Of a DNA stretch of 64,000 nucleotides, positions 503 to 63,935 are shown in pieces (position 1 is the first letter of the stretch; every line of letters starts with the position of its first letter). The position numbers and the translations under genes are program-made. The notes under the pieces were generated by a model. That model did no database searches. It had not been told where the DNA came from and worked only from the letters and a program-made list of their open reading frames with translations. The stretch covers positions 6,386,001 to 6,450,000 of the forward strand of contig CP126193.1 of assembly GCA_030272155.1 (NCBI GenBank), read 5' to 3'. The DNA comes from Tetradesmus obliquus. Its lineage: Eukaryota > Chlorophyta > Chlorophyceae > Sphaeropleales > Scenedesmaceae.

Positions 503-3500
503 TGCGAGTCGGACGACCTGCAGCAGTGCGGCAGGCTGTGGGGCCGCGTGGCTTCTGCAGGCAACCGCTGGAGCGGCGAGTGGGGCCTGCAGGCACTTGC
601 AGCAGCGCAGCGCCTGGAGCTGTCGCTTGCAGGATACGCGGATGACATGTGCAGCCACACACAGGTGCGACACACAGAAGGGCTGCTGGTTTGGACAGGG
701 ATAATCAGGTTGTGCAGGATCCTCTGATCCAGTGGCCTGCTGATCCGTGCACGGCGTCCACGGTGGCGGTGCAGCTGGGCAGGTTGCTGCATCGACCTGC
801 ACCCTGTCGACAAGCTGCACGTTCAATCCGTGTGCTTCACACCGTTGATGAATCACAGCTCATCCTGTTCTCACTTTTGCATGTCTTCTGGCCTCCTGTG
901 ATGCCGTTGGCTGTTGTCACTATGGCTCAATTGCTGACACGGTTTGTATGCTGCTGTCTGCTGCCGCCTGCTGCTGCAGCGCCACGCGGAGGCGCTGGGC
1001 AAGGCAGCCAAGGTGGACCAGGCATTCATCCTCAACTTTGGGGAGGAGGTGGTGCGAGGCCAGCCCGTGTTTGTGCTGAGCGGGCTGCTGCAGGACCTGG
1101 AGAGGCACCTGCGCGACGCAGCTGGCGCAGGACCCTGGCAGGTGAGGGTTTGAGCATATGTTTGACCAGATGTTTGACCAGATGTTGACCTTGCAGCAGC
1201 AGACTGTGTTGTGCTGCTATGGCTTTCAGACTTCCTGCAGGCATTGTCACCCTTTTCCGCAAATTGTTCAGGATGCTGCTCATCAGTGCTCAAGTAGGCT
1301 ATGTCATATGTTGAGTGCTGCATGTGTTGCCTGCTGCAGGTCATCAGCCAGATGCCTGCTCTGGGTGAGGTGACAGTCCAGAGCCTGACAGACATCAAGG
1401 GCCAGGCCTTCGCTTCAAACATAAAGTAGCACCTTTCAAGCACTTTTCCTCAGCAGTGTTTGTGTGTTGCTGCGCCTGCTGCCCCATCCTGCAGGTCATC
1501 AGCCAGGTGCCTGGTCTGGGCGAGGTGACAGTGCAGAGCTTTGCATGAAATCGGGGTTGTTGCTTAGCATTGTCTGTGTTGCTGTGCCTGCTGCCCCTCC
1601 TGCAGGTCATCAGCCAGGTTCCTGCACTGGGTGAGGTGACAGTGCAGAGCCTGGCAGACATCCAGGGCCAGGCCTTTGACAAGCCGCTGGTGCTCATCTG
1701 CGAGAAGCTGGGAGGCATGGAGGTGAGCAGCAGCAGCAGCAGCAGCGCTGCATGGACTAAGCAGCTGTGTGTGTGGGTTTGCAAATTCAGTTGCTGTGCT
1801 TGCTGCGTGATTGGTGCTAGAGGCTCTGCCAGCTTCGGGTGTTCCGTCCAGATCACGTATAGATGCAGCCAGCGCAGCAGTCCCACAATGCATGCCTGCC
1901 ACTAAAGTCAACTGCTTATTCTTGCTGTATCGGCACTGCTGCGCTGCTGCTGCTTGCAGGACATCCCGCCAGGCATCACTGCTGTGCTGACCAAGAGCAG
2001 CACTGATGTGCTGAGTCATGTGGCCATCAGGGCACGCAGCCAGGGAGTGCTGCTGGCCACATGCTTCGAGGACTCCGAGTGGCAGCGGCTTGTGGGCATG
2101 CAGGTGGGTTGTGTGCTGATGGCGGAGCGGCTGCGTCTGTTCAGCAACAGCAGACACACGCAGCAAGCTGCACACCTCTCCTTCCAGCAACAGCAGCTGC
2201 AGCAGCATCCGACACATGCCGTTGCCCTTCTGCGGCAAACGTTTGTCAGTGCTCCCCCATCACAAGATTGTATTTGTGCTTGCACCACCGCACCGTGCCA
2301 GCTGCATTGCACCGCTTTTATTCTGCCTTGAGCCCGCACCCTGTGAGTGGCAGTGGGTATGCACGGGGGCTGCTGCAGCAGCCAGGCAGTTGCAACCATT
2401 CAACTACAGCAGCAGCACTAAACAGCATGTGATTTCGTATCGCGGCAGCAACACTTGATGCAGCAGCATGGCGCCGCTCTTCAATCGTCGGCTTGAAGCA
2501 ATGCTCCGACACAACATGTGCAAGCCCCCCAGCAATCCCTGCGCTTACCACCGTTCATTTCGTTATGTACATCATCCATCCTGCCACTTGCAGGGCCAGC
2601 ACGTGAGCCTGGAGGTCAACCCAGCTGGCGAGGTCATGGCAGTGCAGGTGGACCCCCCAAGCGGTGATGCAGCGGCCGGCGCAGCCAGCAGGGGCGGGCG
2701 CAAACTGACGCTGGCAGCCCCTGCGCCATGGAGCGCCTGGGCGGTGGCAGAGCAGCAGTTTGGGCCTGGTGAGATACGCCTTTCGAGTTGCTGTTACATG
2801 CTCATCATGTTTTCAGAGTGTATGAGTGGCCAGTTCCTTGCTGTGTTGCTGCCATTCCATGCGTTGCATTCTGCTGCTGTCTGTCACAAATTGCTGTTGC
2901 ATCTTTTTTGAATATGTCTTTGAACCACGTTTCATCTGCTTGCTGCTGCTGCTGCCGCTGCTGCTGCTGCTGCTCAGCAGGCGTGGTGGGTGCCAATTCC
3001 AACAACCTGGCCAAGCTGTGCAACAAGCTGCCGTTGCATTATGTGTAGGTTTATTCATCTATAATCATTATAATAAACCATGTTATCGAATCGCTGCTGC
3101 AGGCGTGGTGGGTGCCAAGGCCAACAACCTGGCCAAACTGCGCAACAAGCTGCCGGAGTGGATCCAGGTTCCTGCAAGCGTGGCGCTGCCCTTCGGCACG
3201 TTTGAGCAGGTGCTGGCCTTTGGCGCCAACTCGGGCGCTGCTGCGCGGCTGAGGGAGCTGCAGCAGGAGCTAGGCAGAGCAGAGGTGAGGCTGACGGGGC
3301 TGTTATGTGCTGCATGCAGCAGGCAGTACCTTTGTGGCGCGGGAGAGAGACGTCGCGCGAGAGTGGCCTGTTACAGGGGTGCGCGCGGCAGCAGTAAAGC
3401 AGCGAGAGAGGTCAGTTACAGGGGTGGGCAAGCTATCGCCCTAGAGCGAGTCACTTGCCCCTCTTTCAGCTCACATATCATGAGAACCCGATAGCAGGCC

Positions 3501-5007
3501 ACAAGATGCAACCAAAGTAAAACTCCAGAGGCATCTTGCAGCCCCTACCTCCCCCTAAACCAACAAGCAGCAACGCTGGACTCGCAAATGAAAGGCAGTG
3601 GGCTGCCAGGCTGCACAGTTGCCCAGGCAGCAGCGGTTGCTGCCCTGGTATGCTGTCACAGCCTGGCAGGGTTCCATGGCCAAATGGATAAGGCGCCGGT
3701 CTACGGAACCGGAGATTCCAGGTTTGATCCCTGGTGGAATCGGTCAACGTAATTTTGACCGTTCGCATTGTCTTCTGGCGGTTAACTGCCCTGTGGCATC
3801 CACAAGATGCACCTTGTGTTGTGCAAAACCCTTTTGCTGAACTGTCATGTTGTGTGCTGTGCTACTGTGCCGTCGTATGCGTGTGCTTTACAGGTGGGAG
3901 CAGGTGTGCCGCTTGCCCTGGCAGAGATCAGGCAGCTGGTGCGAAGGCAGCTGCAGGCACCACCAGAACTTGTCCAGGTAAGACCAGCATTGCTCTCTTG
4001 AAGAGACCTGCTGCTTCTGTGCCGACGGCTGCTGTTACATGACACATTTGTAAAAGATCGGGGTTGATGTAAGTGCATGGGCCATCTGCAAAGGCAGCTG
4101 CAGGCACCACCAGAACTCATCCAGGTATTACCTGTTAAACAGCAGCAGGGCGCGCCAGCACGCGCTGTTATGTGACTGTTATGTAACAGATTTGTAACAA
4201 AAAGGGGGCATATCAGCATGGGCTCAGGCCCCACACAGTGGTGCAGCAGTTCTGAAGGCGGGGCAGCAAGCAATTCGTGTGGTGCCTGTAGCCTGTCTGC
4301 TACATGCACGCACTGTGTTGATGATCAAGCTGCTGCTGCATTACCTCCTGGTGCCTGTCTGCAGCAGTTCTAGTCCCGCCTTCTGCATCATGCCTGCTTT
4401 GCTCGCGTCCGATACCCTAACAACGCTTGCTGCCGTCTGCTTTTGCACTCCTGCTGCTGCCTGTCACTTGCAGGAGCTGTCGCGCACTGCTGCTGCTGCC
4501 GGCCTGCCAGGCGCAGAGAGCTGGACATCACCAGGAGAGTGGGCTCCCACGTGGGCAGCCATCACCAAGGTGCGGCTGCTGTAGTGTATTGGCTATGTTG
4601 TACAGCATGTTGGCTAGGCATGATAAGCAGCAGCTACAACCACCAGCCATTGGGCGCGCATGTGGGCGGCATCCACCAAGGTAGGCAGCGCAGCTCCTGC
4701 AGTGACAGAAAACATGCAACATTGTTGAAGTAGCACCTGATCAGGATGCGCTAAGCTGCATCCAGATCTGCTGCCGAAGCTGGGTAAATGCTTGCTTGCA
4801 GTCATTAGCGCGGATACGTTGCAGCTGCAGCAGTGCATTACACGTGTGCCTGTTTTGGCTGCGGCTGCCGCATGTCAGCTGCTGCATGTGTGCTCTTGCT
4901 AGCCACTGCCATCTGTCGTTTACCAAGTTTGCATTGTTTGACATTGACTGGCATACTGTCCCAACCTCACCAGCACACATGCATGATGCTCGGGTCTTTA
5001 GTCAACA

Positions 5008-5040
<33 letters not shown>

Positions 5041-6364
5041 AGGTGTGGGCCAGTCAGTGGGCGGAGCGCGCCTGGCTGAGCAGGCAGGCCTGCGGCGTGC
5101 CTGAGGGCCAGCTGTCCATGAGCGTGCTGCTGCAGCAGGTGCGCGGCAGTTACTGTCAGTCAGTGCGGTTGCAGGACAGCCCCTGCACGTTTGCTTTCCA
5201 ATCAGATGCTGTATGTGATGGACGCTGCTGCGCCGATGCATAAAGCAATGAAAGCGAGGCCAACCAGCTGACAATGACGATGCTGCTGCTGCTGCTGCTG
5301 TAGGTGGTTGACGGCCAGTACGCGTTTGTGCTGCACACCGCCAACCCGCTGACAGGGCGCCACGGCGACATGTTTGGGGAGCTGGTGGCAGGCCTGGGGG
5401 AGGTGCTGGTGAGTGGCGCTGCTGCTGCTGCTGCTGCTGCTAGCTGTAAGTGCAGGCTCTGCTGCTTTCGTTACTCGCTGCAAGGCTAGTGCCAAATGAG
5501 AGGGCAAGCCGGCGATGTGTATGAAGCTCTGGAGCTTAGGTGAAAGCGAACATTGTTGAAGGCAACACCATCCCGCTGCTGCTGCTGCTGCTGCTGCTGC
5601 AGGTCGGCAACTACCCAGGCCGTGCACTGAGCTTCTCAGATTCGCCTGGAGCTCCGGAGCCGCAGCTGCTGTCGCTGCCCAGCAAGCGCGTGGCGCTGTA
5701 TGCGCCCCAGGGCGGCACACTCATTGCGCGCAGCGACACCAACGGAGAAGATCTGGAGGCCTTTGCGGGAGCAGGACTCTATGACAGGTGCGTGAGAGAT
5801 TGTTGGAGTGTGCTTTAGTATATTGGAAGGGTGGGAGGGGGTGCATGGCATCAACAGAGAGGACCTGGAGGCCTTTGCAGGGCTGTACGACGTGTGCATG
5901 GGAGGTTTTCATGTATCGACATCAAGAACAATATTTGATACCTTGGGCAAGATGGATCTGGATACCACCTCAGCGATAGCAACGACGCCATCGTGGAAAA
6001 TGCCTGTATGTTACGCTGTGTACGCATCGCTGCTTGAATGCTGGAGGAACGCAGAAATGACATGACGTGCTGTATCAATCGATCATAACTCACTTCCTGC
6101 TGCTGCTGCTGCTGCTGCAGTGTGCCTGTGGTGCCCCTCAACGAGGTGACCATCGAAGCAGCAGAGGAAGCCCTTCTGTGGGATGGTGGCCTGCGCTCAC
6201 GCCTCATCGACAGCATCGTAGATGTGGGCCAGGCAGTTGAGGATGCCTTTGGAGGTGTTGCTCAGGACATTGAAGGGGTGTGGAGAGAGGGTAAGCTGGT
6301 GGTGGTGCAGGCGAGGCCACAGGTGCTGCCCACAGGGGCGGGAGATGGCAACGGCAGGCACTGA
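503..6364 (+). CDS. GWD1: Alpha-glucan, water dikinase, C-terminal part
   Basis: This enzyme phosphorylates starch glucosyl residues in the chloroplast, moving the beta-phosphate of ATP to glucan through a phosphohistidine and opening the granule for degradation. Exons I place: 503-664, 980-1141, 1606-1722, 1960-2103, 2594-2768, 3103-3284, 3894-3977, 4474-4569, 5043-5138, 5304-5408, 5603-5787, 6121-6364. Together they are 584 in-frame codons including TGA. The phosphohistidine segment DVLSHVAIRAR is in exon 1960-2103. The nucleotide-binding domain follows with NNLAKLRNKLPEWIQVPASV, QYAFVLHTANPLTG and ARSDTNGEDLEAFAGAGLYD, and it ends with DIEGVWREGKLVVVQARPQV. The family is about 1,400 residues long, so the starch-binding N-terminal half lies outside the window. 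The HVAIRAR context fits GWD1 better than phosphoglucan dikinase (PWD). Several introns end in CTG runs and several exons have truncated copies in the introns. Confidence 0.93.
1340..1543 (+). repeat. Two truncated upstream copies of dikinase exon 1606-1722
   Basis: Copies at about 1340-1410 and 1495-1543 repeat the start of the exon (VISQxPxLGEVTVQS) together with the CTGCAG acceptor and about 45 bases of intron tail. The first runs to QAF before diverging; the second breaks off sooner. Neither continues into an open exon with a donor, so they are inferred to be intronic relics. The full exon is the third copy. Confidence 0.85.
2981..3034 (+). repeat. Upstream copy of dikinase exon 3103-3284
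   Basis: The opening of the exon (GVVGAxxNNLAKLxNKLP) occurs once here, then again as the true exon 122 bases later. This copy ends at LHYV and a stop, and it sits behind its own CTG run and AG. Confidence 0.85.
3670..3742 (+). tRNA. tRNA-Arg (anticodon ACG), nested in a dikinase intron
   Basis: A full cloverleaf can be drawn. Acceptor 3670-3676 pairs with 3735-3741 (one G-U), D stem GCC/GGC at 3679-3681 and 3692-3694, anticodon stem CCGGT/ACCGG around loop CTACGGA with ACG at 3703-3705, T stem CCAGG/CCTGG at 3718-3722 and 3730-3734, discriminator G at 3742. There is no intron. The sequence closely resembles plant tRNA-Arg(ACG). The T loop reads TTTGATC instead of TTCGATC, which changes the normally invariant C56, so it could be a lightly decayed copy. 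A run of four T lies about 11 bases downstream. It is on the same strand as the host gene. Confidence 0.88.
4078..4126 (+). repeat. Downstream copy of dikinase exon 3894-3977
   Basis: The 3' end of the exon (RQLQAPPELxQ) and its GTA donor are repeated in the following intron. It duplicates the donor side only. Confidence 0.8.
4648..4682 (+). repeat. Downstream copy of dikinase exon 4474-4569
   Basis: A short decayed repeat of the exon end (GCxCxxGTGGGCxGCxATCxACCAAGGT) including the donor. Confidence 0.6.
5850..5892 (+). repeat. Downstream copy of dikinase exon 5603-5787
   Basis: NREDLEAFAGLYD repeats the NGEDLEAFAGAGLYD end of the exon, 60-100 bases after it, inside the intron before 6121. 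Confidence 0.75.
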
Positions 6365-7630: not shown

Positions 7631-8034
7631 TCAGATCGCGCGATTGTCGCCGCCACGTGCATCGTAGCCAGGTGTGGGCCCCGCAGTGACGCTCTCTGGC
7701 GGGTCCTGGTCGATGGCTGGGGGAGACTTGGGCGGGCTGCTGCTGGGGATGGTGCCTGGCAGCAGCGGCAGCAGCACAACAGCAGCAGCGGGTGCAGCAA
7801 GCGAAACTTTACTGCAAGCCCGCCTTTCCAGTGCGTTCACTAAAGCCTGCCAGGCTGCTGCTGGGGATGGTGCTTGGCAGCGCAAACAGATCTAGAGCAG
7901 CAGCAGCAGGAGCGTGTGCAGCAAGCATATGTGTAAAACTGCCTCGCAGACAGCGCACACGCTTGTGCTCAAGAAGCAGGCCGCGCTGCGGGACGAGATT
8001 ACTGCACAGCACAGGACTCAGGAGCTATCGACTT

Positions 8035-8066
<32 letters not shown>

Positions 8067-10965: not shown

Positions 10966-11331
10966 GGTCCTAGGTTTGCTGCACGATGTGAGTGAGGGAG
11001 ATGGTGTTGTAATATCGCTAAAATTGGTGAACAATATGAACAAGGAAACATTGCTGTCGCCGTGTTGCAGTGATCAATCTTGTGCTGAGGCTTTCGATGT
11101 GTCATCGTGACATCCCCAGTGCGAGCCATCGTGCGTCCACGAGCGGTAGTAATAGCCCTGCTGAGTGTGCATTGCATTATAATATCTTTGTACTGATGCT
11201 GAAGTTAACACGCGAATTTGGGCCAACACAGCAGCAGCTGCGGTTGCATTTGCAAGTACATTGTACTGTGTGGTCCAGGTGACATTGACCTTCTGCTTCC
11301 CTGCTTAGTGCACTCTGCTGGTCAATCCATC
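10966..11331. promoter_or_regulatory. Divergent promoter region
   Basis: The 366 bp between the start codons of two head-to-head genes must hold both 5' untranslated regions and core promoters. No clear TATA box or known operator is seen. Both products have organelle-type leaders, which is compatible with shared control, but that is inference. Confidence 0.5.
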
Positions 11332-13929
11332 ATGAAGGCTGCATCGTCTGCTACCCTTTCACTTCTGTCCGGCAGTACAGCAAGACTCAGCTTGATGTGC
11401 AATGCTGCAGCTGGCAGCCTGCTGCGCCAGTCCCTGCCAGCAGCATCTGCCAGCACCGCCAGCAGGGGTGCAGCACAGAGCATCCTGAAGCAGCAGCAGC
11501 ACAAGTTTTTTTCTTCATCATCTGGCAGCGCTGCAGGCAGTGAGGGGCCTGGTGAGCTGCGCTAGCGACGAATGCATTTGCTAAACATTTGAAAAGTGAG
11601 CTGTGCGCATGCGTGTGGCAAATGCACGTTGTTGAGTGCAGCGCTGCAGCGCCAGAAGCGAGCATTGGCTGGACAATGAAGGTGGCCACAGCACTGCTGA
11701 GAAAGCAACCTAGAACTTACTTTGCATTCTTTTGTGTAGAGATAACACTCTGCTCTTAATGCACAAAGTTTCTGCTGGCTGCTGGCGCCCCAAGCCCTTA
11801 CCAGGCCTGCAGTCGCCGGGATGCACAGAACAGCATAGACTCGCCCTTTCTTGTGTGTAGGGCTTTTACATCCATTCAAAACTACCGTTGCCGCTGCTGT
11901 TGCTGCTGCTGCGTGCCGCCGCAGTGTATCTGGTGTTTGGTGCCACTGGCGGCATCGGCTCTGCCCTGGCCCGCCGCCTGGCCAGCCAGCCCCAGTCAGG
12001 TGTGGGGTGGGGTGCAGGGCAGCTGTATTGGGCGGGCATGGTGTAGTTGTAGCACAGAGTGTGCTACCTTGTGGCTTTCACTCTACACAGCAGCCTGCCC
12101 GCCAGCCACAATGACATCAGTGCTGTAATATACTTTGCTCTCCAGTCGTGCGGCTGGATGCTGCATAGCAGCCATGGCGTACGACTGGAGAGCAACGTAT
12201 GTTGCTCCATTTTCACCGCAGAGAGGTGCGCTTTTACCTAGCAATGGAGTGCGTAAGCGCGTGGTCACAATAGGCGTTGGGTGTATATGGTCTTTCCACA
12301 TCTCCTTCACCAGGCAGCTGTCGCAATGAGTTCCCATCGTTGATGGCGCTCCTGTGTTGTACTGCAAACAGCACCCCTCTGACCAATGCACTTCTGCTGC
12401 CATGCTGCAGGCTTTCCTGCGCCCTCTGCGGTGGTGCTGGCCAGCCACCAATCATCACATGCGCTCGTCGCCAACTGCTGTCGCCGTATGTGTTGTGCTT
12501 GTGCTGCCATGCTGCAGGCTCTGCCGCACCGTCTGCGCTGGTGCTGTCATCCCACCACAGCGACAAGCTGCAGCAGCTGCAAAAGTAATCCTTCTTACAA
12601 ATGCTGCTTTCGGTGCCATGCTGCAGGCTCTGCCGCGCCCTCTGCGCTGGTGCTGACCAGCCACCACAGCGACAAGCTGCAGCAGCTGCAGGGCAGCCTT
12701 GCTGGGGGCGGCTCCTGCAAGGTGGAAGTAGAGGCGGCAGACGCAACCGACCCTGAACAGGTGGGCTACTGATAAGGTGTTGTAAGAGGACAATTCATCC
12801 AGTGGTGTTGTGTTACACCAGGTTCCTGCAAGGTGGAGGTGGAGGCGGCAGACGCAACAGACCCTGAGCAGGTGATTCAAAAAGTGCTCAGCGACAATCA
12901 ACTCTGAACTACGTGACATTATGCGTCTGTATGCCTGCTTGCAGCCAGCCCTACCTCTGCCAAAAGACGCCAGCAGTCGCTGGTCCTGTTTTGACGACGT
13001 CCTTATGCAGGACAACATGACAAAGATTCTGCTGCTGCACTGCCCATTGCTGGCTGCAGGTCGACAAGGTGGTGCGTGCCGCGCTGTCGCGCCATGGCAG
13101 GCTGGACGGCGTTGTCAACTGCATTGGAAACGTGGACGCTGCCTCTGCGCTGGCCACGGAGGTGCAGCAGCTGCAGCAGGACCTGCAGGTGCGACGCTGC
13201 TTGTACTACAGTAGTAATGCTGTGGCTGCTGTGGCTGCTGTGGCTGCTGTATATGCTGCATCTGCTGCAAGTCTGTGTGCGCTGGCCGCTGAGGCAGCAG
13301 CTGCAGCAGGACCTGCAGGTGCGTTGCAGCCTGTGGTGGCAAAAGTCCTGCATGCTGTACAACATCTTGACTGGACCCGATGTCAAACTGGTGCTGCATG
13401 GCACGGCGCTGCCAATGAAGAGCCTGTTGTACCTCAAATGGACACGGTGACTGTTTTGTAACGCTTTCCAGGTGAACCTGTTCACCAGCTTCAACATTGT
13501 CAAGTCCTCTATCAAAGCCATGGTGGCAGGAGAAGCACAGGGCAGCAGCGGCAGCAGCAGCAGCAGCAGCAGCGGCAAGACCAAGTCCCATGCAAGCCCA
13601 GCCGAGGGCAAGGGGGCTGGCGGCAGCATTGTGCTGGTGTCTGCTGCTGTGGCTAGCCACGGCATCCCCAACTATGAGAGCATGTCTGCAGCAAAGGCGG
13701 CAGTGGAAGGTGAGGGCGCCAGCTGACAATATAGTAACAGTGGTAGACCAGCAAGGCTATCAGCCGCAAGTTGCTGCATGCTGTTTAAACCAGGATCATG
13801 AGTGAGGAAGTGCAGCGTAAAGGAGCCACTTGAAGTTGTATAGCGCAGCTGCAAGCAGTTGTGCGGGTTTGGCAGTGACAGCAGTAGCTGAGGCTCAGTC
13901 AAGTGCAGTTAGGGGCTACCTGTTTGTAA

Positions 13930-13997
<68 letters not shown>

Positions 13998-14349: not shown

Positions 14350-14415
<66 letters not shown>

Positions 14416-14744: not shown

Positions 14745-14794
<50 letters not shown>

Positions 14795-14896: not shown

Positions 14897-14967
<71 letters not shown>

Positions 14968-24257: not shown

Positions 24258-24400
24258 CAGCAAGCGGCCACAGGCGCGGGAGGCGCATCCCGCTGCACCC
24301 GGCTGAACCTGACCTGCATCTTGCTGTTTGTGCTGCGTGACCAACGTCGCACTAAGCAGCACATCCTTGCCATTACATGCGTCCTAAGCTGTAGCCCCTC
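24258..24400 (-). repeat. Decayed copy of the P450 C-terminus beyond its stop codon
   Basis: The last 40 or so codons (VLLSATVVTQLKSNTQVRF onward) recur about 300 bases downstream, shifted and degenerate (LLSATLVTQHKQQ, then QVRFSRVQRDAPPAPVAA in another frame). It is a tandem duplication that included the stop-proximal region. Confidence 0.75.
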
Positions 24401-48450: not shown

Positions 48451-48487
<37 letters not shown>

Positions 48488-52307: not shown

Positions 52308-54575
52308 TCAGCGCCGTGCGCGCTTCGCATTTGCTGCCCGCTTCGCCTTAGCTCCCTTCAGCGCGCCCGCCTGCGCGCCCGCCACCACCCCACCCAACCC
52401 CTTCGACGCCTCCGCCTGCTTGCCGCGCCGCCGGTTGAGCATCTTCCTGTCAAACTGCCAGTACGCATACGGGTCAATGCCCCCGCCCTTACCCTTAACA
52501 TCTCCTGAAGCTGAACCCTTGGCCCTAAACCGCTCCCCGCTGTGCTGGCTGCCCTTGCCTCCGCTGGACCTGCCACCTTCGCTGCGGCCGCCGGCACTCT
52601 TCTTACTTGCCGTGCTGCGGTTGCCGAGGCTTGCTGCAATGCTCGGCGCAAATTTCACGCTCTTGGCATTCGCCACGCTCTTCACAGCAGCAGCGAGCCC
52701 CGCAAAGCCCTTCATATCTTCCATATCTGAATCGTCCTCGTCGCCAAAGCCGCCAAACTGCTCTTCTGCATTGCCGCGCTTGCGCTTGCCGGCCCGCCTC
52801 GCGCTGATGTGCCCAAACTCATCCTTCTCTTCTTTAATCAGCATGCGCCCGTCATCCCCGCGCGGAAACTCCGCTGCGGCTGCTGCTGCTGCTCCACCAG
52901 CGCCGCGCCCGCCAGCCGCATTCCCAGCCGCGCTGCGCACCAGCTGCCGTGCTGTGGCAGCTTCTAACAGATCCAGCGGATCATCTGCTGCGCCATCACC
53001 TGCCAGCCGCACCCCGCTGCCCCCCCTGCGGCCGTCTGGCCTATCTCCAAAGCGGCTGCGAGCAGCAGCAGAGCCTGCAGGCCCGCCGCGAGCCGCATAT
53101 CCAGCCGCATGTCCTGCTGCTTGCGTGGCTGCATCACCATCTTCGCTGAAGATGGCGGTGTGGCCCCACTCGCTGGCGCGCGCGGTGCGGCCTGCGACGC
53201 TGCGTGCGGCGCTGCCGGCGCTGCGCTGGCTGCGGTGGTCAAACTCGGCTGCGTCGGCCTGCAAGGAAAAACAGAAGATGTGCCAAATGCAGAGTGCAGT
53301 GTCAGCCAGCAACACAACAGAGAGAGAAGCAAATATCTCTTGTCTGTTGGTTGCGCTGGCTGCGTCAGTAAATCTTGGCTGCGTCGGCCTGCAGGGGGCA
53401 GCAGATGCAGTACACCAGGAATTGTGGTGCTAGCAAGGGACATGTCTGGTCAAAGCATGGAAGGTCTCATAAGAGGGTTGCTGCAGAACGTGGCCGTGCA
53501 CAGACAGTCCACGGCACATCTGCCTCCTCATCCACGCACCTGGCTGCCACCCTCGGTGCCCTGCGGCTCACCTGGCTGCCACCCTGCCGTTTGTTCTATG
53601 TCGCTATGCTGCAATATCAATCTGACTTCTATATGTTATATTTGCATTTCTAACTCGTCATGTTGGAGCCGCACCTGGCTGCCTCCCTCGCTGCCCTGCA
53701 CCCCACCTGACTGCCAGCATGACAGGTCGAGTGTTCTATATTGCTATATCTACTATGACTCTGCAGAATATTCATCTTGAAGCCGCACCTGGCTGCCACC
53801 CTGGCAGGCATCTTGCTCTATGCTGCTTTACTTGCACAAAATACAACTCTAATAATTCAATATTCCGCTTTTAAAGCCGCACCTGGCTTCCTCCCTCGCT
53901 GCCCTGCGCCTTGCGCCGCTCCTTGCGGCTGGCCTGCTTGCGGATGTGGCTCAGCAGCTTGGCGTCACCAGGGGGGCAGGCGGACGCCACCGCCTCGTAG
54001 CCGCAGCGCCGCACCAGCCGCTCCACAATCACGCGGATCTGCGAGTGTTACAAGTGTGGCATGGTGTTTTGTTGGATTTGATGAGGGGAAGCAGTGAGAG
54101 CCACTGCCTCGCAGCCGCAGCGCCGCACCAGACACTCACGTGGATCTGTGGGTCTGCATCAATACGTGTGAGCTTCAATCAGTTGATCATGTGAGTGCCA
54201 GTGACAGTCAACGCAGTAGAGATAGTTCAGTGAGAAGAAGACCACGCAAGAAAGGTAGCAGCAACAGGAACAGGCCCATGCCGCGGCTGCTCCGTCACTG
54301 CAACCAGAACAAACATAACAATGATATAACAACATGTGATTCATCACAACTGCCTCGCACCTTGAGTCTGAACTTGTTCTTGGAGTCGTCCGCCCACAGC
54401 AGCATGCCCTCCAGGATCTGAGGCAGCCAAATCATCAGCAGGTCCACAGGCATCCGCGTCGCGCAAACCTGAAAGAAGACAAACGCAGCAGCAGCGGCGG
54501 CGGCATTGTAAGCACTTATATTCGAGGCAGCAAGATCATCAGCAGGTTCACAGGCATGCGCATCGCACACACCTT

Positions 54576-54614
<39 letters not shown>

Positions 54615-57600
54615 GCGGCAGCCAAGTGTGCACGTCAATGTGAGGCAGCCAGATCATCAGCAGGTCCACAGGCATGCGCATCGCACACACCTGGCAGCAG
54701 CAGCAGCAGCAGCAGCAGCCAAGTGTGCACGTCAATTTGAGGCAGCCAGATCATCAGCATGTTCACAGGCATGCGCATCGCACACACCTGGCAGCAGCAG
54801 CAGCAGTAGCTCGGCTGCACACCACAGACGCACTAACCCTCTGAACCCCGGCCACACACCCCCAGCCCTAAACCCTTGTGCTCTGCCCCTACCTTGATGA
54901 AGCCCAGCACTGCCTTGATGACCTCCCTGCTCTGGCGACACACTACAGAGGCGAGCCAACCCCCCGCACCCTGACGACATACACCCAGCCCTAAACCCTT
55001 GTGCTCTGCCCCTACCTTGATGAAGCCCAGCACTGCCTTGATGACCTCCCTGCTCTGGCTGCGCAGCAGCAGCAGCACCGCCGGCAGCAGCCGCCCAACC
55101 ACTCCCTCCAGCTGCCCAGCAAACTCAAATGAGAGCCGAGCCAGCGCCAGCACAGCAGCAGACTGCATGTGGGGGCTGCTGCCCACCAGGCCGCCCATAA
55201 CTGCATTCACAAAGTCCAGCAGGCCGCCAGACGCAGGCTTCGAACCCCGCCCGCCGCGCTTTTGCTTTTGGGCGTCGTCTCCGTAATCCATGTCGTCGGA
55301 GGACGCGTCGTCGGCGTCCGAGTCGGCGGGGTTTAGGGACAGGCTGTCGCCAGGGTTTAGGGACAGCGGCCGCGCCTCGTCCAGCTCGTGTGCGATGTCC
55401 ACAATGAGCTGGTAGGCTGCTGTGCGCGTCTTCTTGTTGACCTGTGAGGTGGTGGTGAGGAGCAACAGAGAGAGCACAAGCAGATGGCAATTGCCAGTTA
55501 GGGTTGCCAGTGCATGCATGTAACAGAGGTGGGGTGCGGGGCAAAGTTGTACAGGCAGTGTTGCGAGTACTACACATGTTCTGCACACTCAAATGCAGCC
55601 CGGCTCTCCTGCAGCAAAGATCACCTACCCAAAGCAACCCTCCCTCGCCCGCTAGCACAGCCCGTTGCTGTCGGCAGTTCGTGACCATACTCAGCTCTAA
55701 GCCAACCCCTCACCTATGTGATGGCCAGCACCAGCTCCCACACCAGCAGCTGCCGGCCGCACACACCAGCCCCCAGCCACCTGCACCTCTACACCATACA
55801 CAACAGCCTTCTAGCCCTGCTCCGCACATACATTCTCGCATGCAAAATAATTTGCAACTTGTCTGTTGACGCACCTCTTTAGTGGCCAGCACCAGCTCGC
55901 CCACCAGCAGCTGCGCCAGCGCCACACCGCAACAAAACCCACACAATCTCAACCACACATATCCCGCACCTCTTTGGTGGCCAGCACCAGCTCGCCCACC
56001 AGCAGCTGCGCCAGCGCCACCCGCCGCTGCTCAGCCGCCTGCCGCTCACTGCGGCCAGGCACTGCTGCCGCTGCTGCTGCCAGCGCAGCACCCCCTGGCA
56101 CTAGCTCAGCGCCTGTGGCTGCGTCAACGAGGCCTGGCAGGGCTGGGCAGGGCGTGGTGTCCAGCAGTAGGATGAGCGGCTGCAGGCACCTGCAGCAGCA
56201 GCAGCAGAAGCAGCAGCAGCAGTAGCAGCAGCAGCAGTGATGAATACAAGACACAAAGAGCAGCAGGGGCACCAGCAGCAATGGCGTGCATCTAGAACAC
56301 TGCCGCTGTATGTATTTGCTTGGCCCAACCCATAGAGAAGACACACACTCATGCACATGCACACACACACCTGCGCGCCCTGCACATCACTCCAATATGA
56401 TCACACCCCCGTCTGAGCCTGTGTCGCTTGGCACGCGACAGCGCAGCCGCGCTGCCCAGCAGCAGCAGCTCCAGCAGCTGGCCCAACAACATAACATGCC
56501 TAACCCATGCGCAGCCACACCCTTACCTGAGCCTGTAGCGCTTGGCAGGTGACAGTGCAGCAGCGCTGCCCAGCAGCAGCAGCTCCAGCAGCTGCCCCAG
56601 GTGCGCCTGCAGCCACTGGGGCCGTGCTGCTGCCAGGTAGTCCAGCACGCGGTAGCAGCGCTTCTGCAGCAGGCTGCTGCCACCCAGCACATGCTGCCTG
56701 CAGGCCTGCAGTAACGAAGGTACAGCAAGCAAGGGTTGAGGAAAGAAGATGAAATACCAAGCCAGTGTGTCAGATGCAGCGCTTCTGCAGCAGGCTGCTG
56801 CCAACCAGCACATGCTGCCTGCACACCTGCAGGTACAGAAAGGGAACAAAGGAAAGGTACAGCAAGCAGGGGTTGAGGAGGATCTTCAAGGCTGTGTGTT
56901 GAATGCAGCACTTCTGCAGCACGCTGCTGCCACCCAAAACATGCTGCCGGCAGGCCTGCATGGTCACCCAGGGAGATAAGGACATACAGGTGCAGCAGAC
57001 CGGGGGTACGGGAGGTTGGTAAGTAGGTGCATTAGTCGAGTGCGCGTGAGGATACCAGCAGAAGGCTGCTCATACGTGATACAGAGGCAGTTGATGTCAG
57101 CACCTCCATATCAGCGCTAGAAAGTGCGTCATCACGTAACACACGAGCATGGCCAAGTCATAGGCTTGAAGCCAGACGCAGTTGAAGTTTGACGCCCTTC
57201 ACAACCAGCGAGCTAAGAGCGCCGTCATCACCTCAAGGCACACACACTTACACGGCACAGCACAGCCTCCGACTCAGCGCAAACAGCCAGTCCAGTGCAG
57301 CGTCAGGCAGGCCTCCAGCAAGGCACAGCGCCAGCTCCACAAATGACGCCTGGCGCTCCTCAGGGCTGCCACACAGCCAAGCACACACCCACAGCCACAC
57401 CAAGACCTTTGGCACACTTGAAGCCGCGCGTCCTGTGCGACCCACCACCCTCAACAACATCGCAATGCCTAGCACTAGCACACACATTCATTACCGATGA
57501 ATTTGCCAGTACTCACTGCAAACAGCGGGTCCAGCGCAGCGTCGGGCAGCCCGCCTGCAAGGCACAGCGCCAGCTCCAAGAATGATGCCTGGCGCTCCTC

Positions 57601-60600
57601 AGGGCTGCTACGCAGCCAACCCAAACATCGCCAGAGCTACAGCCCACGGCGATACACACGCACAGACACTCACAACCAGCAGCACGTGCAGGGTTGACAA
57701 TGCTCACCGCAAACAGCGGGTCCAATGCAGCATCTGGCAGGCCTCCAGCCAAGCATAGCGCCAGCTCCAGGAAGCTTGCCTGGCGCTCCTCAGGGCTGCC
57801 GCCACCATCCAGGATGGGGTCCGGGGGCGGCACCTCTGCGGCTGCGTCCCGTGCAATCTGAATACACAGCAGTGAAAGAATAGCACAGCAAGTTCAGATT
57901 GAAGCTTGGTTAGCATGCGCAAATCTGCAGGGAAAGGTACAAAAAGGCAGACGAGCGAAGGCAGCATGACGGGCTGAGCTGAGGTTGCACATAACATGGA
58001 ACACAGGAAGGATCACTCGAATGGCCACTGTGAAGTACAGGCCTGTTTACGGTCTCATCCACCCACCTTGCCGTACTTCTGCAGTGCCAGCCGGAACAGG
58101 CCTGCCAGCTCCTGGAGGTCAGCCACGCTTGCAGTGGCTGCCAGCGCATGCATTACACATCAACACAACCACAAAGTCATCAAACGTGCTTTACTTACCT
58201 TGCCGTACTTCTGCAACGCCAGCCTAAACAGGCCCGCCAGCTCCTGCGGGTCGGCCACGCTAGCAGTGGCTGCCAGCGCATGCCATACAACAAACAAATG
58301 TCCTTCTTATGAATGCAGCCTCACCTTGCCGTACTTCTGCAGTGCCAGCCTGAACAGGCCCGCCAGCTCTTGGGGGTCAGCCACGCTAGCAGTGGCTGCC
58401 AGCGCCTCACCCACATGGCTGCGCGACTCGGCAGGCAGCTGCAGCAACAAGCAGCAGCGGCAGCAGAAGACAGGTTGTCAGCAGCAGGGGTTCATCAGCA
58501 GGGAACAAGCAAAGGCATGCAGCAGCAGCGCACTTGCCAGCCAGATGTTTGCACATCATCCACTTCAAAGAGCACGCCCTGCAGACCCCACCTAACCCTG
58601 AAACCCTAAACCCAGCGACCCCTGAACCGTCCTGCAAACCCAAAACAACCCTGCAACCACAGAACCCCTACCTCATAAAGACCTTGCACATCAGCCGCAG
58701 CCATTTCAGCGAGCTCACACTGAAAAGCCCCAGCATTGACCCCTACAGCCTCCTCCGCCCCCTAAACCCCAAGCAAGCCCTGCACTCCCCAAACCCCACA
58801 CAAGTCCCAAACCCACCTCAATGAAGACCTTGCACATCAGCCGCAGCCACTTCAATGAGCTCGCCCGCAGCGCCAGCAGCTGCCCCAGCGCCACCTCAGC
58901 AGTGAAAGCAGCAGGAGCAGCGCTTGCCGCATCAGGCCCCACATCTGCATCCACACTGAGGATGCTGCGCCTCCTGCGGCCTGCAATCCCTGCGGCTCTT
59001 GAACCCTGCTGCTGCTGCTGCTGGCCGTATTCCTCTTCATCATCCTCATCCTCGCTGCCTTCTTGCTGCTGCTGCTGCTGCTCCCCATCTTCTGCTGCCT
59101 CGTCTGCCTCATCTTCGCCCTTGCCTGCGCCCGGAATGGCAGCAGCTGCACCAGACACGAGACCCAAGGCCTGGATGGCGGCTAGGGTTTTAGGGGAGGC
59201 CTCCACTGAACCCTGCGCTGCGGCCAGTGCCACAGCACGGGCCTGCTTGCAGAGCCGCACTAGGACGGTTGCCACGTTGCCGCGCAGGTCCTCACGGGTG
59301 TGAAAGACAGCAGCAAGGTCAGGAGCCATGCCTGCACGAACACAATAACACAACCATGAAGCAGCAGGGCACATCAGTTGGTCACTAGGACAGTTGCCAC
59401 ATTGCCACGCAAGTCTTCACGGATGTGGAAGACGGCAGCAAGGTCGGGAGCCATGCCTGCAGGAACAAAGTGACACGATAATGTAACAGTAAGCCATAGC
59501 AGTGCAAAGTAGGACGGTTGCCACATTGCCTCGCAGGTCCTCACGGGTGTGGAAGACAGCAGCAAGGTCAGGAGCCATGCCTGCACGAACACAATAACAC
59601 AACCATGAAGCAGCAGGGCACATCAGTTGGTCACTAGGACAGTTGCCACATTGCCACGCAAGTCTTCACGGATGTGGAAGACGGCAGCAAGGTCGGGAGC
59701 CATGCCTGCAGGAACAAAGTGACACGATAATGTAACAGTAAGCCATAGCAGTGCAAAGTAGGACGGTTGCCACATTGCCTCGCAGGTCCTCACGGGTGTG
59801 GAAGACGGCAGCAAGGTCTGGAGCCATGCCTGCAAACGTATTGAACAGCAGGGCAGCCACCAAACATGGGTGCACAGCCAAGGGTGTGCAAGACAGCAGC
59901 AAGGTTGGGAGCCATGCCTGCCAGTGCAAAGCAACATGACAATGTAACAGCAGGCCAAACCAGTCAGTGCAAAGTAGGGACAGAGGCAGCAACTACAGTG
60001 ACTAGCAGACGCACGTCATAAACCATAACATGCACGGTGCCCACACATGCTGCAGCCTGAACCAAAGCCTCCACAATGCATGAGTGACTGCTGTAACAGG
60101 CAACCTACACCAGTGTCTACACACGCAAGCGAGAACACCACAAGCCTCGACTGTGACTGCAAGGCCAGCAGCAGCAGCAGCAGCGGCGGCGGCGGCAGCA
60201 GCGCACCCTCATATGCCTCCGCAGCGTAAGTCGGCCATGCCGCAAAGGCCTGCAGGCAGCCCCACAGCTGCAGCTCCAGCGCATGACACGCAACCTACCA
60301 TCCAGATGGTGCCAGACCTGGCAAACCTGCTGCTGCCTGAACTTTTCAAATGCCAAAATGACTGCTGTACAAAGCAAGTTCAGATCACAGCTTGAGCACA
60401 AAGCTAGAACATCACCTGCACAGCTGTCTACAGAGTAATACAGCACAACACACAGCAGTAGCTCACCCTCATATGACTCCGCAGCGTAAGTCGGCCATGC
60501 CGCAAAGGCCTGCAGGCAGCCCCACAGCTGCAGCTCCAGCGCATGACACGCAACCTACCATCCAGATGGTGCCAGACCTGGCAAACCTGCTGCTGCCTGA

Positions 60601-63280
60601 ACTTTTCAAATGCCAAAATGACTGCTGTACAAAGCAAGTTCAGATCACAGCTTGAGCACAAAGCTAGAACATCACCTGCACAGCTGTCTACAGAGTAATA
60701 CAGCACAACACACAGCAGTAGCTCACCCTCATATGCCTCCGCAGCGTCAGTCGGCCACGCCGCAAAGGCCTGCAGGCAGCCCCACAGCTGCAGCTCCAGC
60801 GCATGACAGGCCACTGCAGTGCTCTTGCGGCCAGCCTGTGATGCCGCTGCTGCTGCAGCACCCATCTGCTTGGCCAGAGGCCCCAAATGGCTTGCCCAGA
60901 AGCCGAGCTGGGAGCCTCGAACGTGCTTGCGCAGCGCTGGCAGCAGCCAGGTGCGTGCCTCTGCTGTTCCTGCAAGGCCCTCGTGGATCTGCAGGGGCAG
61001 CACCTCCAGTACTACCTGCGGGCCGAGGCTCCTGCAAGCAATATAAAGAAAAGGCGGCAGCAGCAGCAGCGGCAGCAGCAGCAGCAGCAGGATGTATGGC
61101 TTTTAGTGGAAATAGCTGCTGCAAGCATTTATTATTCTCTTCCTGCAAGCCCTTCATGGATCTGCAGCGGCAGCACTTCCAGCACTACCTGGGGGCCGAG
61201 GCTCCTGCAAGTTGCAGCAGCAGCAGCAGCAGCACACAAGGCGTTCAGTGGTTGAGTCAATGCTGTTCCTGCAAGGCCCTCGTGGATCTGTAGAGGCAGC
61301 ACCTCCAGCACTACCTGTGGGCTGAGGCTCCTGCAACCAGCAGCAGCAGGCACGGCAATGACATATGGCTTGTGCAGATGCGCGCTGTAGTATGTTGCAC
61401 AGTGATTCCGGCAGGGGAAGTGGCAGCACTGCTGCCATAACAACACAAGAAGTGCATGCAGCAGGTACAAAAGCCAGTTGCACTGCCAGCGGTTGCTAGG
61501 GGTACGATGAACGCTGTGCAGGGATACTGCCGCATGCGCAAACACCCCACCAAGTGGCCTGTGTTCTAAACATTGCCTTGGTGCACACGGGTTTGTAAAG
61601 CGCTCTGAGCGCGCACAGCATAGAGTCACGCCCTTGCATTTCTCACCTGATTGCAACGCCCATTGCTGCCTCTGCAGCGTGTGCGTAGCTGCTGCTGCTG
61701 GCCTTGCCTGCCCCTTCCCCTTCAACATCCATTGCTGCATCATTCTGCTCTGCCTCATCTGCCAGCCCTGCACAGATCTGGCCCAGCGCTGCCACAACAG
61801 GCGCAGCAGCAGCTGCTGCACCGCCGGCTGCAAGGTTTTCGCACAGCACTCCAGCCACTGCAGCAGGCAGGCGGCAGCAAGTAGCGCATTAACAGCACCA
61901 CACTAACAGTAAGCTTAGCATTCAGCCTCTTGCGTGTAACAAGTAGATTCAGCAGTTCAAGGGATAGCACTTATTGCCCGTGGGCCAGCTTGCAGGATGC
62001 TGATGTGTCAAACATGCCTGTGCGACCCAAGGCTGCTGCGGGTTTGTCAGGGAACCCTACTGCGCCTAGTCCGTCCTGCAACATCATGCGCGACTGCTGC
62101 CTCCCCAATCATTCTGCATACATACACACGCACAGTAACTTCAGCCCTAGCCAACGCAGCTCCACACCAGGTGCTGCTACTACAAAGATGTCAAAAATAA
62201 CAGATTTCAAACACACCTGGCAGAGCAAGGCCCCACGCCTCCTGATAGCGCGCACCCAGCCCACTCGCCACAGCAGCAACCAGCGACGTCAGCGGCGACA
62301 TGCCACCCCTGCTGCTGCTGCTGCCGCCCTGCTGCTGCAGTGCTGCCACCAGGCTAGGGCTGAGGCAGGACTCCAGCAGCGACTGCAGCGCACCGCTGGT
62401 GTTGTAACGCACGCCGTCCTGCTCTGCTGCGAGCTGTTTGAGCGGACAGGGAAGAATGCAGAACAGAGGCAGTAGAAGCAGCAGCACCAACGCCAGTCAA
62501 GGGGATACCCAGTAAACAAAGCAGCGCGCAAGTGCTTGCCGAGTGAGACATATGCATCTTCATTTCAGAGCAACAGCCCCAGCCCCTCAGCATAGAAGCT
62601 TGTGCAGCAGGCGCCCGCAGGGCTGCAGCTGGGCAGTCATGCCTATTTCAATTTTGATTCCCGCCCAAAATGATGCAACCAACCTTGTAGGCATTGCATA
62701 AGAGAACCGGAAAATAATCTGAGAGGTGAAGAACAGTGTAACCAGGTGCAACAATGACATGTGCTGTGTGCAGACTCACCAAGGGCACCAGCAGGTGCAC
62801 CACTTTTGGCAGCAGCTTGCCCGCTGCTTCAGACGCCAGCTCAGACAAGCGCCCTAGGCCAGACTCAAGCAGGCGGGCCATCGCTGACAGCTGGTCGCCA
62901 CCAGCAGCGCCAGACGCACCACCCAGGCCACTGCCGGCACCTGCAGCAGCAGATAACATCACACTTTCAACAATGATCTATGACGAATGCCGCATCGCTT
63001 TTGCTGCACAAGTTGCACTAGAGCCTATTCCGCAGCAGCAGCAGCTGTAGCTTGAACATGCAAAGTCCCAACACCGCCCTGCACCTGCAAGCAGTGACGA
63101 GGCCTCGCCGTCTATCAGCAGCGCCAGCAGCTGCTGCAGCTGCTGCGGGCCCATGTGGCTGCTGCCGCTGCCGGCCAGTGCGCCCAGCACCTCGCTGGTG
63201 TGCCTGCTCAGCAGCGGCTGGCGCAGGCCGTACAGCTTCACCAGCTGCTCTGACAGGCTGGGGAGCGATGCGGCTGCATG
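52308..63280 (-). CDS. RRP12: RRP12-like ribosome biogenesis protein, C-terminal part
   Basis: RRP12 is a HEAT/ARM-repeat protein needed for maturation and export of both ribosomal subunits. Exons recognised (minus, approximate): 63092-63274, 62776-62945, 62217-62433, 61985-62095 (uncertain), 61640-61865, 60725-61031, 58818-59333, 58324-58437, 57708-57857, 56527-56706, 55973-56190, 55014-55440, 54360-54472, 53883-54038, 52308-53258. Family matches: GPQVVLEVLPL then TWLLPALRKHVRGSQLGFW, QLWGCLQAFAAWPTDAAEAY, SLKWLRLMCKVFIE, TRTAAYQLIVDIAHELDEA, REVIKAVLGFIKV, FRLKVR/IRVIVERLVRRCGYEAV, and the basic C-terminus GGIDPYAYWQFDRKMLNRR. The N-terminal third or more lies beyond the window. Acidic Gln/Glu insertions are longer than usual. 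Introns are packed with exon copies. Confidence 0.9.
53535..53808 (-). repeat. Downstream copies of RRP12 exon 53883-54038
   Basis: At least three short copies (about 53786-53808, 53670-53703, 53535-53565) of the exon end and donor, reading CGCACCTGGCTxCC on the plus strand. A single copy of the last exon's start is at 53340-53395. Confidence 0.75.
54520..54795 (-). repeat. Three upstream copies of RRP12 exon 54360-54472
   Basis: VCAMRMPVxxLMIWLP with acceptor recurs at about 54520-54575, 54640-54695 and 54735-54795, each associated with a CTG run in transcript sense. Confidence 0.9.
54893..54945 (-). repeat. Downstream copy of RRP12 exon 55014-55440
   Basis: QSREVIKAVLGFIKV plus donor is repeated exactly in translation about 120 bases on. 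Confidence 0.92.
55707..55925 (-). repeat. Two downstream copies of RRP12 exon 55973-56190
   Basis: LAQLLVGELVLATKEV at about 55872-55925 and LLVWELVLAI in decayed form at 55707-55750. Confidence 0.85.
56403..56960 (-). repeat. Copies of RRP12 exon 56527-56706 on both sides
   Basis: Upstream copies of the start (ACRQHVLxGSSxLQKRC) at about 56903-56960 and 56774-56828; downstream copy of the end (LLELLLLGSAA then RCRVPSDT) at 56403-56480. Confidence 0.9.
57273..57620 (-). repeat. Two downstream copies of RRP12 exon 57708-57857
   Basis: SPEERQASFxELALCLAGGL and PDAALD recur at about 57519-57620 and 57273-57370, still open and close to the exon. Confidence 0.92.
58066..58270 (-). repeat. Two downstream copies of RRP12 exon 58324-58437
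   Basis: TASVADPQELAGLFRLALQK and YGK with donor at about 58196-58270 and 58066-58150. Confidence 0.92.
58670..58722 (-). repeat. Downstream copy of RRP12 exon 58818-59333
   Basis: The exon end (SSLKWLRLMCKVF region) recurs about 146 bases further on with few differences. Confidence 0.85.
59387..59920 (-). repeat. Higher-order tandem array of an RRP12 exon start
   Basis: About five copies of a 124-bp monomer carrying the exon start GMAPDLAAVFHxREDLRGNV with acceptor. Two alternating monomer types form a 249-bp double unit. The exon plus first monomer (from 59267) and the next pair (from about 59514) are nearly identical. Confidence 0.92.
60204..60723 (-). repeat. Two near-identical 260-bp units after RRP12 exon 60725-61031
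   Basis: Units 60204-60463 and 60464-60723 differ at one position that I can see (CATATGCCTCC versus CATATGACTCC). Each holds a copy of the exon end with donor plus about 190 bases of intron. The true exon's end is the third occurrence. Confidence 0.95.
61137..61340 (-). repeat. Two upstream copies of RRP12 exon 60725-61031
   Basis: LGPQVVLEVLPLQIHEGLAG with acceptor at about 61146-61212 and 61275-61340. Confidence 0.9.
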
Positions 63281-63339
63281 GCAGAACGGAGGTGCAGCAG
63301 CAGCAGAAAAAGGGTTACTTGCAGGGCCAAAGGGTTGCA

Positions 63340-63935
63340 GCTTCGGCAGCGGCTGGCGCAGGCCGTACAGCTTCACCAGCTGCTCTGACAGGCTGGGCAG
63401 CGATGCGGCTGCAATGGCAGAAAGAGGTGCGGCAGCAGCAGCAGCAGTAGCAGCACCAGATAAGGTTAATTGCAGGGCAAAAGGCGTGCAGCTTCAGCAG
63501 CGGCTGGCGCAGGCCGTACAGCTTCACCAGCCACTCTGACAGGCTGGGCAGCGATGCGGCTGCATGGCAGAGGTGCAGCAGCAGCAACAATGTTACTTGC
63601 AGGGCCAAACAGGTGCCGCTTCAGCAGCGGCTGGTGCAGGCTGTACAGCTTCAGCAGCTGCTCAGACAGGCTGGGTTGTGATGCGGCTGCAGCAGCAACA
63701 GCAGCAGCAGCAAAAGCAGCAAAAGGAAAGGTTACTTGCAGGGCAAAAGGGATGAAGCTTCAGCAGCGGCTGGCGCAGGCCCGTACAGCTTCACCAGCTG
63801 GTCATACAGGCTGGGCAGCGACGCAGCTGCAAGTAGATCACAAGCACAGAAACAGCAGCAGCAACATGGAAGGGTTAGCTGCACGGCAAAGGAGGTGCAG
63901 CCCCATCGGTCGCGCGAACAGGCTGGGTAGCACAG
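63340..63935 (-). repeat. Tandem array of an RRP12 exon start, about 135-bp period
   Basis: Four copies and a partial fifth of ASLPSLSEQLVKLYGLRQPL with acceptor precede the true exon (63092-63274). The shared landmark AGGCTGGG recurs at about 63255, 63390, 63541, 63668, 63808 and 63918, so spacing is 110-151 bases. Confidence 0.92.

Follow-up and report, generated by a model that had tools for sequence, protein, structure and literature searches.

The window analysed here, a 64,000-nucleotide stretch of the green alga Tetradesmus obliquus (positions 6386001-6450000 of contig 3, CP126193.1), carries eight genes whose exons are supported, at least in part, by homology: GWD, SDR, P450, CASP, ASA4, AAR2, a transporter and RRP12. 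All eight contain, in their introns, truncated copies of their own exon edges, each taken together with its splice junction, which we call echoes. Local duplications in this genome concentrate at splice junctions, and the echoes are probably the outcome of tandem duplication focused on those junctions and followed by decay of the copy that splicing does not use.

Pfam families were recovered from the spliced translations of GWD (alpha-glucan water dikinase; PF22973 and PF01326), SDR, P450, AAR2 and the transporter, a major-facilitator protein, while CASP_C was found on the CASP open reading frame at 30501-32003. In ASA4, a mitochondrial ATP-synthase associated protein whose presence is indicative of the class Chlorophyceae, exon 37775-38340 matches PDB chain 6rd4_4 (E=5e-35). 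The transporter is SLC37-like, colinear with SLC37A4 over 379 of 391 residues, and the spliced RRP12 translation aligns to human RRP12 in three stretches, several echo-bearing introns included. Both alignments, made with copy-free translations, show no gap where a copy was omitted and no space for a repeated segment. Exon models came from a gene finder self-trained on the window and on 25 loci, 250 kb in all, of the same genome (assembly of 104.66 Mb in 17 contigs of 3.1-11.1 Mb), which were picked at round coordinates irrespective of content; true exons were then chosen by hand. The final gene finder still fuses some neighbouring genes, which were therefore split manually, and exons of the eight genes that lie outside the homology matches are its predictions. 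Since a Pfam family was found for 3 of 20 single exons from the other loci, most reading frames at those loci are unverified. Of all predicted introns in the sample, about 1% (7 of 570) start with GC instead of GT.

On the uncorrected exon list the eight genes bear 65 echoes at 38 junctions; after correction of three exon models there are 67, and 38 of the 122 junctions have at least one, namely 18 of 62 acceptors and 20 of 60 donors. Echoes also occur at 76 of the 413 predicted junctions of the 25 other loci (31 of 211 acceptors and 45 of 202 donors, on unverified models), 19 of which have at least one echo of five or more codons. The copies of junction edges that the original prediction placed in the introns of multi-exon genes are accordingly real, both inside the window and beyond it. 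They are also local and direct, as a self-comparison of the window confirmed: of 93 repeats, 85 were direct and within 5 kb, three direct and farther apart, and five inverted. Local matches numbered 325 direct versus 20 inverted, of 147 echoes with an assignable position 126 occupy the intron immediately adjoining their exon, and a genome-wide search with the array at 59255-59840, the sole array searched, found matches confined to its own locus.

Copies of an exon's 5' part had been claimed always to lie upstream of that exon, and copies of its 3' part always downstream. We compared each exon edge (at most 120 bp) plus 80 bp of intron with 2 kb each way on both strands (E<=1e-4). With uncorrected exons, 37 acceptor copies lay upstream and 4 downstream, and 28 donor copies downstream and 2 upstream, so that 65 of 71 obeyed the rule; this search of the window returned no inverted junction copies. 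All six exceptions trace to three doubtful exon models: P450 28802-28885, which we replaced with 28542-28644, RRP12 54860-55416, which we trimmed at an internal donor, and RRP12 61238-61330, which we removed. The claim then holds strictly, with 39 of 39 acceptor copies upstream, 28 of 28 donor copies downstream (67 of 67) and none inverted, although 65 of 71 remains the unbiased figure because the corrections were made after the exceptions had been seen. The uncorrected list also underlies the 65-echo catalogue and the shift sizes, unit centring, intron-side homology, intron lengths, frame offsets, splice-dinucleotide counts, cut-end splice sites, synonymous divergences, substitution-model test and polarised branches given below. 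The scan of introns with their own flanking exons extends to the 25 loci, where acceptor copies were 44 upstream and 15 downstream and donor copies 70 downstream and 5 upstream (114 of 134); a further three matches overlap their own junction and five are inverted. When a duplication crosses an acceptor, the partial copy of the exon start ends up upstream of the complete exon; when it crosses a donor, the partial copy of the exon end falls downstream. The side rule is forced geometrically by tandem duplication across a junction in a gene whose protein stays intact. The rule by itself is not the discovery; the surprise is where the duplications fall.

We classified 156 sets of local duplicates from the window and 24 loci, the coding tandem array of locus L018 being excluded here and from the planting controls but included in the side-rule and divergence counts. 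Judged with predicted exons, 133 sets cross a junction, 11 are confined to introns, 7 to exons and 3 to intergenic sequence, and 2 lie near gene ends. As a control, random tandem duplications of ~120 bp, with 2, 6 or 10% change per copy, were planted in the same sequences and analysed identically. The fraction recovered was 0.91-1.00 for each class at all three levels of change, and the shares among those recovered were 0.26-0.31 for junctions, 0.35-0.38 for introns, 0.14-0.16 for exons, 0.12-0.13 for intergenic sequence and 0.06-0.07 for gene ends. For the eight genes, whose exons were picked by hand, 32 of 34 duplicate families span a junction, against 31% by random placement (p=1e-14), and corrected exons again give 32 junction and 2 intron-only families. 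An earlier gene model read one of these two, at 3940-4127 in GWD, as small exons, and it may also be a junction family. Among young sets (at least 93% identity), 15 are at junctions, 2 in introns, 1 in an exon and 1 intergenic (15 of 18 genic sets, p=5e-5). Duplications thus concentrate at junctions, not merely anywhere in introns, and on account of this focus (133 against 11; 32 of 34) we rejected neutral debris as a full account. Echo-bearing junctions are not on longer exons (median 174 versus 181 bp, p=0.90). The echoes span a range of ages, with synonymous divergence running from 0 to >0.5, and of 162 echo pairs at least eight codons long, 82 have diverged at no more than 20% of synonymous sites.

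The distance by which copies are shifted has its mode, a sharp one, at 110-130 bp, a class that takes in 32 of 107 nearest echoes, and is never less than 60 bp; the units of 50-260 bp proposed originally were about right, and the mode is an addition to them. For nearest echoes with a shift of 60-180 bp (n=80), the median exon part is 49 of 124 bp at donors and 53 of 118 bp at acceptors, and it exceeds 0.7 of the shift in just 4 of the 80 units, placing the junction at roughly mid-unit. A minimum intron part is to be expected in acceptor echoes, because the copied intron end must contain the branch point as well as the acceptor; we know of no comparable need at donors. Homology between the two copies extends to their intron sides (z>=4) in 46 of 93 nearest echoes, does not (z<2) in 28 and is intermediate in 19. 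In some copies with little or no intron homology, such as 55870-55930, the exon part is 94-98% identical, which points to filler, to an origin in another allele or to introns that change very quickly. Young joints that can be read without ambiguity are few. Introns that bear echoes are longer, with a median of 450 bp (28 introns) versus 273 bp (27 introns; p=0.002), in keeping with the predicted growth of introns, although the copies' own length explains part of the difference.

The spare copies appear to be released from coding constraint. Window repeats that touch a predicted exon have mismatches at 186 of 2197, 144 of 2188 and 447 of 2202 first, second and third codon positions, and this third-position bias is in part the true exon evolving under constraint. 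In 18 polarisable triples, the echo branch carried 8/7/9 changes at the three codon positions and the exon branch 3/3/13, and fifteen overlapping comparisons between sister echoes gave 3/4/3. The spare copy therefore appears to evolve like neutral DNA, on small numbers; the predicted decay of the unneeded copy is borne out where branches can be polarised, and strong conservation of echoes, which we had entertained, was abandoned once those branches proved neutral-like.

Constraint on the exon does not account for all of the bias. When a triplet-context model of mutation was fitted to non-coding repeats and one echo was taken per junction, we observed 95 non-synonymous differences in the window against 143 expected (ratio 0.67, 95% confidence interval 0.51-0.84; 33 of 38 junctions, five being too short or without differences). 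Elsewhere, at 58 junctions with a confident but unverified frame, there were 200 against 256 expected (0.78, 0.68-0.87). A substitution-model test on 58 partly dependent pairs gave 137 non-synonymous differences against 212 expected. Both mutation models shrank the synonymous excess and in both it persisted, so we rejected a mutational artefact as the source of the third-position bias. The deficit of non-synonymous differences is strong in the transporter (7.5 observed versus 26 expected), AAR2 (5 versus 12.5) and SDR (4 versus 7.6), weak in RRP12 (42 versus 54) and P450 (25 versus 33), and reversed in GWD (6.5 versus 5.9) and CASP (5.5 versus 4.1). The synonymous excess exceeds what a neutral echo beside a constrained exon predicts, and its plainest reading is that exon and echo had sometimes diverged before the echo formed, for example when the piece was copied from another allele.

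The splice dinucleotide of the copied junction (GT, GC or AG) survives in 159 of 179 echoes, and acceptor echoes match the true site at 93-97% over the final four positions of the intron, versus mostly 70-82% deeper in it. The proposal that echoes supply extra splice sites stands to this extent, as a potential; at the cut ends, splice sites are scarcer than at random nearby positions (0.05 versus 0.19 for the acceptor type and 0.27 versus 0.38 for the donor type). Copy offsets modulo 3 are random (55/63/61), and on the grounds of random frame and splice-poor cut ends we rejected echoes as coding cassette exons or read-through.

We consider it probable that the echoes arise by junction-focused tandem duplication and then decay, a judgement that leaves aside the cause of the focus. 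A tandem duplication, typically of ~120 bp, would span a splice junction near the unit's middle; splicing would use the copy still joined to the rest of the exon, so that the gene survives, and the other copy would drop inside the intron, upstream at an acceptor and downstream at a donor. There it would drift like neutral DNA, at times after more tandem multiplication, and introns would grow. The duplications may themselves originate in the repair of double-strand breaks or nicks, sometimes with non-homologous filler. Several points weigh against this account or weaken its support: the 28 of 93 nearest echoes that lack intron-side homology, where plain tandem duplication predicts otherwise unless filler is allowed; the dependence of the junction count of 133 on predicted exons, some of them echoes themselves, only the count of 32 in 34 families resting on hand-picked exons; the few changes behind the neutrality of sister echoes (3 synonymous and 7 non-synonymous, in overlapping comparisons); and the longer visibility of old junction copies (the detectable fraction was 0.69 against 0.27 at 20% change, and 0.42 against 0.01 at 25%), which inflates the junction share while leaving the young sets unaffected. 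This visibility would help the model implied by the original prediction, in which tandem duplication is unfocused, selection and decay follow, and splicing hides the survivors that span a junction; such a model also explains the side rule, the orientation and the neutral-like branches without a special mechanism. That part of the prediction which has direct, local, tandem-like copies decaying in place holds, but it is incomplete. Intron-only copies should be harmless and should outnumber junction ones, as they do when planted, yet they are nearly absent (11 against 133; 2 against 32), and the bias persists among young sets, 15 against 2, where planted classes are about equally detectable, making unfocused duplication unlikely. 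We think it very improbable that echoes are functional, as alternative or decoy exons or selected spare splice sites: the intact dinucleotides, the well-kept acceptor ends and pairs that differ synonymously only (12 to 0 in one case) would fit, but the splice-poor cut ends, random frame and neutral-like branches would not, and the protein alignments, where they reach, fit one copy only. An artefact of assembly or polishing, in which two diverged haplotypes were merged and exon ends joined with overlap, would likewise yield copies at the edge of conserved sequence with synonymous-rich differences. It is scarcely credible in view of a five-copy array with alternating types, a junction with at least three different copies, the spread of synonymous divergence, the length of the 17 contigs and the absence of Ns from the window and the first 20 loci.

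Within junction-focused duplication, our leading guess at the cause of the focus, and a tentative one, is repair between diverged homologous chromosomes. Exons would pair where introns cannot, synthesis would overshoot the edge of homology and end joining would close the break, leaving an overlapping fragment of the other allele beside the junction. Repair of this kind would explain both the synonymous excess and the restriction of duplications to the border of conserved and unconserved sequence, and Tetradesmus obliquus is reported, in the available part of a paper that cites the work (PMC12636532), to be a diploid with extensive heterozygosity and possible hybridization. Against it, the alleles would have to be ~25% apart at synonymous sites; heterozygosity in the hybrid alga Auxenochlorella is 2.7%, far below that, and in the 'likely diploid' Scenedesmus 46B-D3 the alternate scaffolds are very similar to the primary ones, as far as the accessible text of either report goes. 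Longer homology might also be expected to help, though echo junctions are not on longer exons. It is almost as likely that junctions are instead hot spots through chromatin, transcription or splicing, for instance where exon-positioned nucleosomes or RNA-DNA hybrids place flanking nicks. A hot spot competes over the cause of the focus alone and is compatible with the rest of the junction-duplication account; it fits the focus itself, the involvement of both splice-site types, the narrow size mode at a chromatin-scale length of ~120 bp and the mid-unit junction (4 of 80 units more than 0.7 exonic), but by itself it leaves the synonymous excess and the non-homologous intron sides unexplained.

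Gao and Lynch, in 2009, reportedly described internal duplications of genes and exons, in segments that hold exons or whole introns. Those duplications and the echoes are both intragenic, but the algal copies comprise an exon edge and some intron and are non-coding. Duplicated or mutually exclusive exons have both splice sites on the copy, whereas the cut ends of echoes are poorer in splice sites than random positions. The AGGT model of intron gain expects exon-internal duplicates that carry AGGT; irrespective of AGGT, 7 of our 156 sets are exon-only and 133 cross existing junctions. Introners are multiplied families of one element. They resemble echoes in adding intron sequence with splice signals, according to the accessible part of PMC4457414, but the algal copies resemble their own neighbouring exon, and far direct repeats make up 3 of 93 in the window. 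The nearest case that we found is the potato RdRp gene, where the available text of PMC4974935 describes a tandem duplication across an intron-exon boundary, joining the 3' side of the intron and the 5' side of the next exon. There, in a single gene, the copy created a new intron; in the alga existing junctions are duplicated, at 38 of 122 in the window and 76 of 413 predicted elsewhere, and the intron merely lengthens. End joining at induced breaks with overhangs yields small tandem duplications (<100 bp, in the part of PMC8355091 available) that are, like echoes, local, direct and independent of repeats; the algal shifts differ in being mostly 100-140 bp and limited to splice junctions. Among titles and abstract openings we found no genome-wide report of junction-centred duplication; subscription papers lay mostly outside that scope, and we therefore make no claim that it is unpublished.

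Intron length varies enormously among lineages, and intron growth without transposons is poorly known. In this alga, the lengthening of introns by duplicates of their own borders is plain to see, and the events are dense enough for their rate, size, position and decay to be measured. Their concentration at junctions, and not in the larger and more permissive intron interiors, suggests that mutation or repair treats exon-intron borders differently from other sequence, and each event leaves an initially intact spare splice site, a possible source of alternative splicing. If repair between diverged chromosomes is indeed the cause, splice junctions would be hot spots of recombination boundaries, and introns would grow by recording past alleles.

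Table. Host genes and echoes in the window (positions within the 64,000-nucleotide stretch)
Feature	Positions	Strand	Support
GWD exons, host gene of acceptor echoes	980..6322	+	Pfam PF22973, PF01326
GWD true exon, 5' part copied upstream	1606..1722	+	
Acceptor echo, 71 bp exon and 10 bp intron, AG intact	1330..1410	+	
Acceptor echo, 51 bp exon and 46 bp intron, AG intact	1446..1545	+	
Acceptor echo of exon 3103-3284	2969..3033	+	
Acceptor echo of SDR exon 12627-12760	12362..12450	+	SDR by Pfam
Acceptor echo of SDR exon 12627-12760	12496..12581	+	
Donor echo of SDR exon 12627-12760; 5 synonymous, 0 non-synonymous differences	12821..12874	+	
Donor echo of SDR exon 13060-13188	13278..13334	+	
Donor echo of P450 exon 24606-25034	24282..24399	-	P450 by Pfam
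Donor echo of P450 exon 25928-26080	25673..25770	-	
Three acceptor echoes of P450 exon 26353-26509	26591..26900	-	
Donor echo of P450 exon 28129-28278	27982..28076	-	
Acceptor echo of predicted CASP exon 32166-32368 (exon outside Pfam-matched reading frame)	32490..32560	-	
Two acceptor echoes of predicted ASA4 exon 36077-36454 (exon beyond PDB match)	36552..36741	-	
Donor echo of ASA4 exon 37775-38340	37667..37692	-	ASA4 by PDB 6rd4
Donor echo of AAR2 exon 39487-39866; 8 synonymous, 1 non-synonymous	39248..39329	-	AAR2 by Pfam
Acceptor echo of AAR2 exon 40337-40590	40655..40692	-	
Donor echo of AAR2 exon 42243-42443	42067..42129	-	
Acceptor echo of SLC37-like transporter exon 45364-45729; 12 synonymous, 0 non-synonymous	45806..45911	-	
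Three donor echoes of transporter exon 47589-48121	46897..47466	-	
Donor echo of transporter exon 49155-49332	49006..49082	-	
Two acceptor echoes of transporter exon 49155-49332	49389..49515	-	
Three acceptor echoes of transporter exon 49770-49918	49989..50296	-	
RRP12, densest host; 15 junction entries, one at doubtful exon 61238-61330	52311..63901	-	human RRP12-like alignment
Three donor echoes of RRP12 exon 53883-54038	53535..53805	-	
Three acceptor echoes of RRP12 exon 54361-54468	54524..54790	-	
Donor echo of RRP12 exon 55970-56189; 96.7% identical, intron homology 5 bp only	55870..55930	-	
Donor echo of RRP12 exon 56527-56697, GT lost	56402..56485	-	
Two donor echoes of RRP12 exon 57708-57857; farther one with GT lost and more amino-acid changes	57273..57608	-	
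Two donor echoes of RRP12 exon 58325-58438	58064..58279	-	
Five acceptor echoes of RRP12 exon 58817-59331; first four alternate two types at ~125 bp	59383..59964	-	
Two young donor echoes of RRP12 exon 60727-61031	60195..60554	-	
Two acceptor echoes of RRP12 exon 60727-61031	61137..61339	-	
Four acceptor echoes of RRP12 exon 63085-63273	63343..63901	-	

In the RRP12 array at 59383-59964, the two copies of one type are identical across the exon part and differ from the exon by ~8 synonymous and 1 non-synonymous changes in 22 codons, as if a two-type unit had arisen first and multiplied afterwards. A further gene on the minus strand, at 7634-10965, has repeated exons that differ mainly at third codon positions and may encode a true repeat protein, for which reason it was excluded from the echo counts; two of its open reading frames were tested and gave no Pfam match.

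Repeats of other kinds were also seen. The window holds an inverted repeat, 15602-15672 and 16079-16149 (71 bp, 91.5% identical), a rare kind among its repeats. CAG/CTG triplet runs are plentiful in many of its introns, and a GCA/GCT periodicity often precedes acceptors predicted by an early gene model. Among the other loci, L018 contains long tandem arrays at 1-3959 and 4086-6039, with shifts of ~275 and 350 bp and 90-96% identity, the first of them coding-like. Minisatellite-like arrays with units of 77-191 bp lie in or beside predicted genes at L006:1-1135, L012:6437-7204, L016:5798-6157 and L025:4779-5243. Three exons alike in length (293, 293 and 259 codons) and composition lie in L019 at 640-1518, 4922-5800 and 9204-9980, at a regular spacing of 4282 bp, and may be parts of a two-exon gene or element that is repeated in tandem and lacks echoes.

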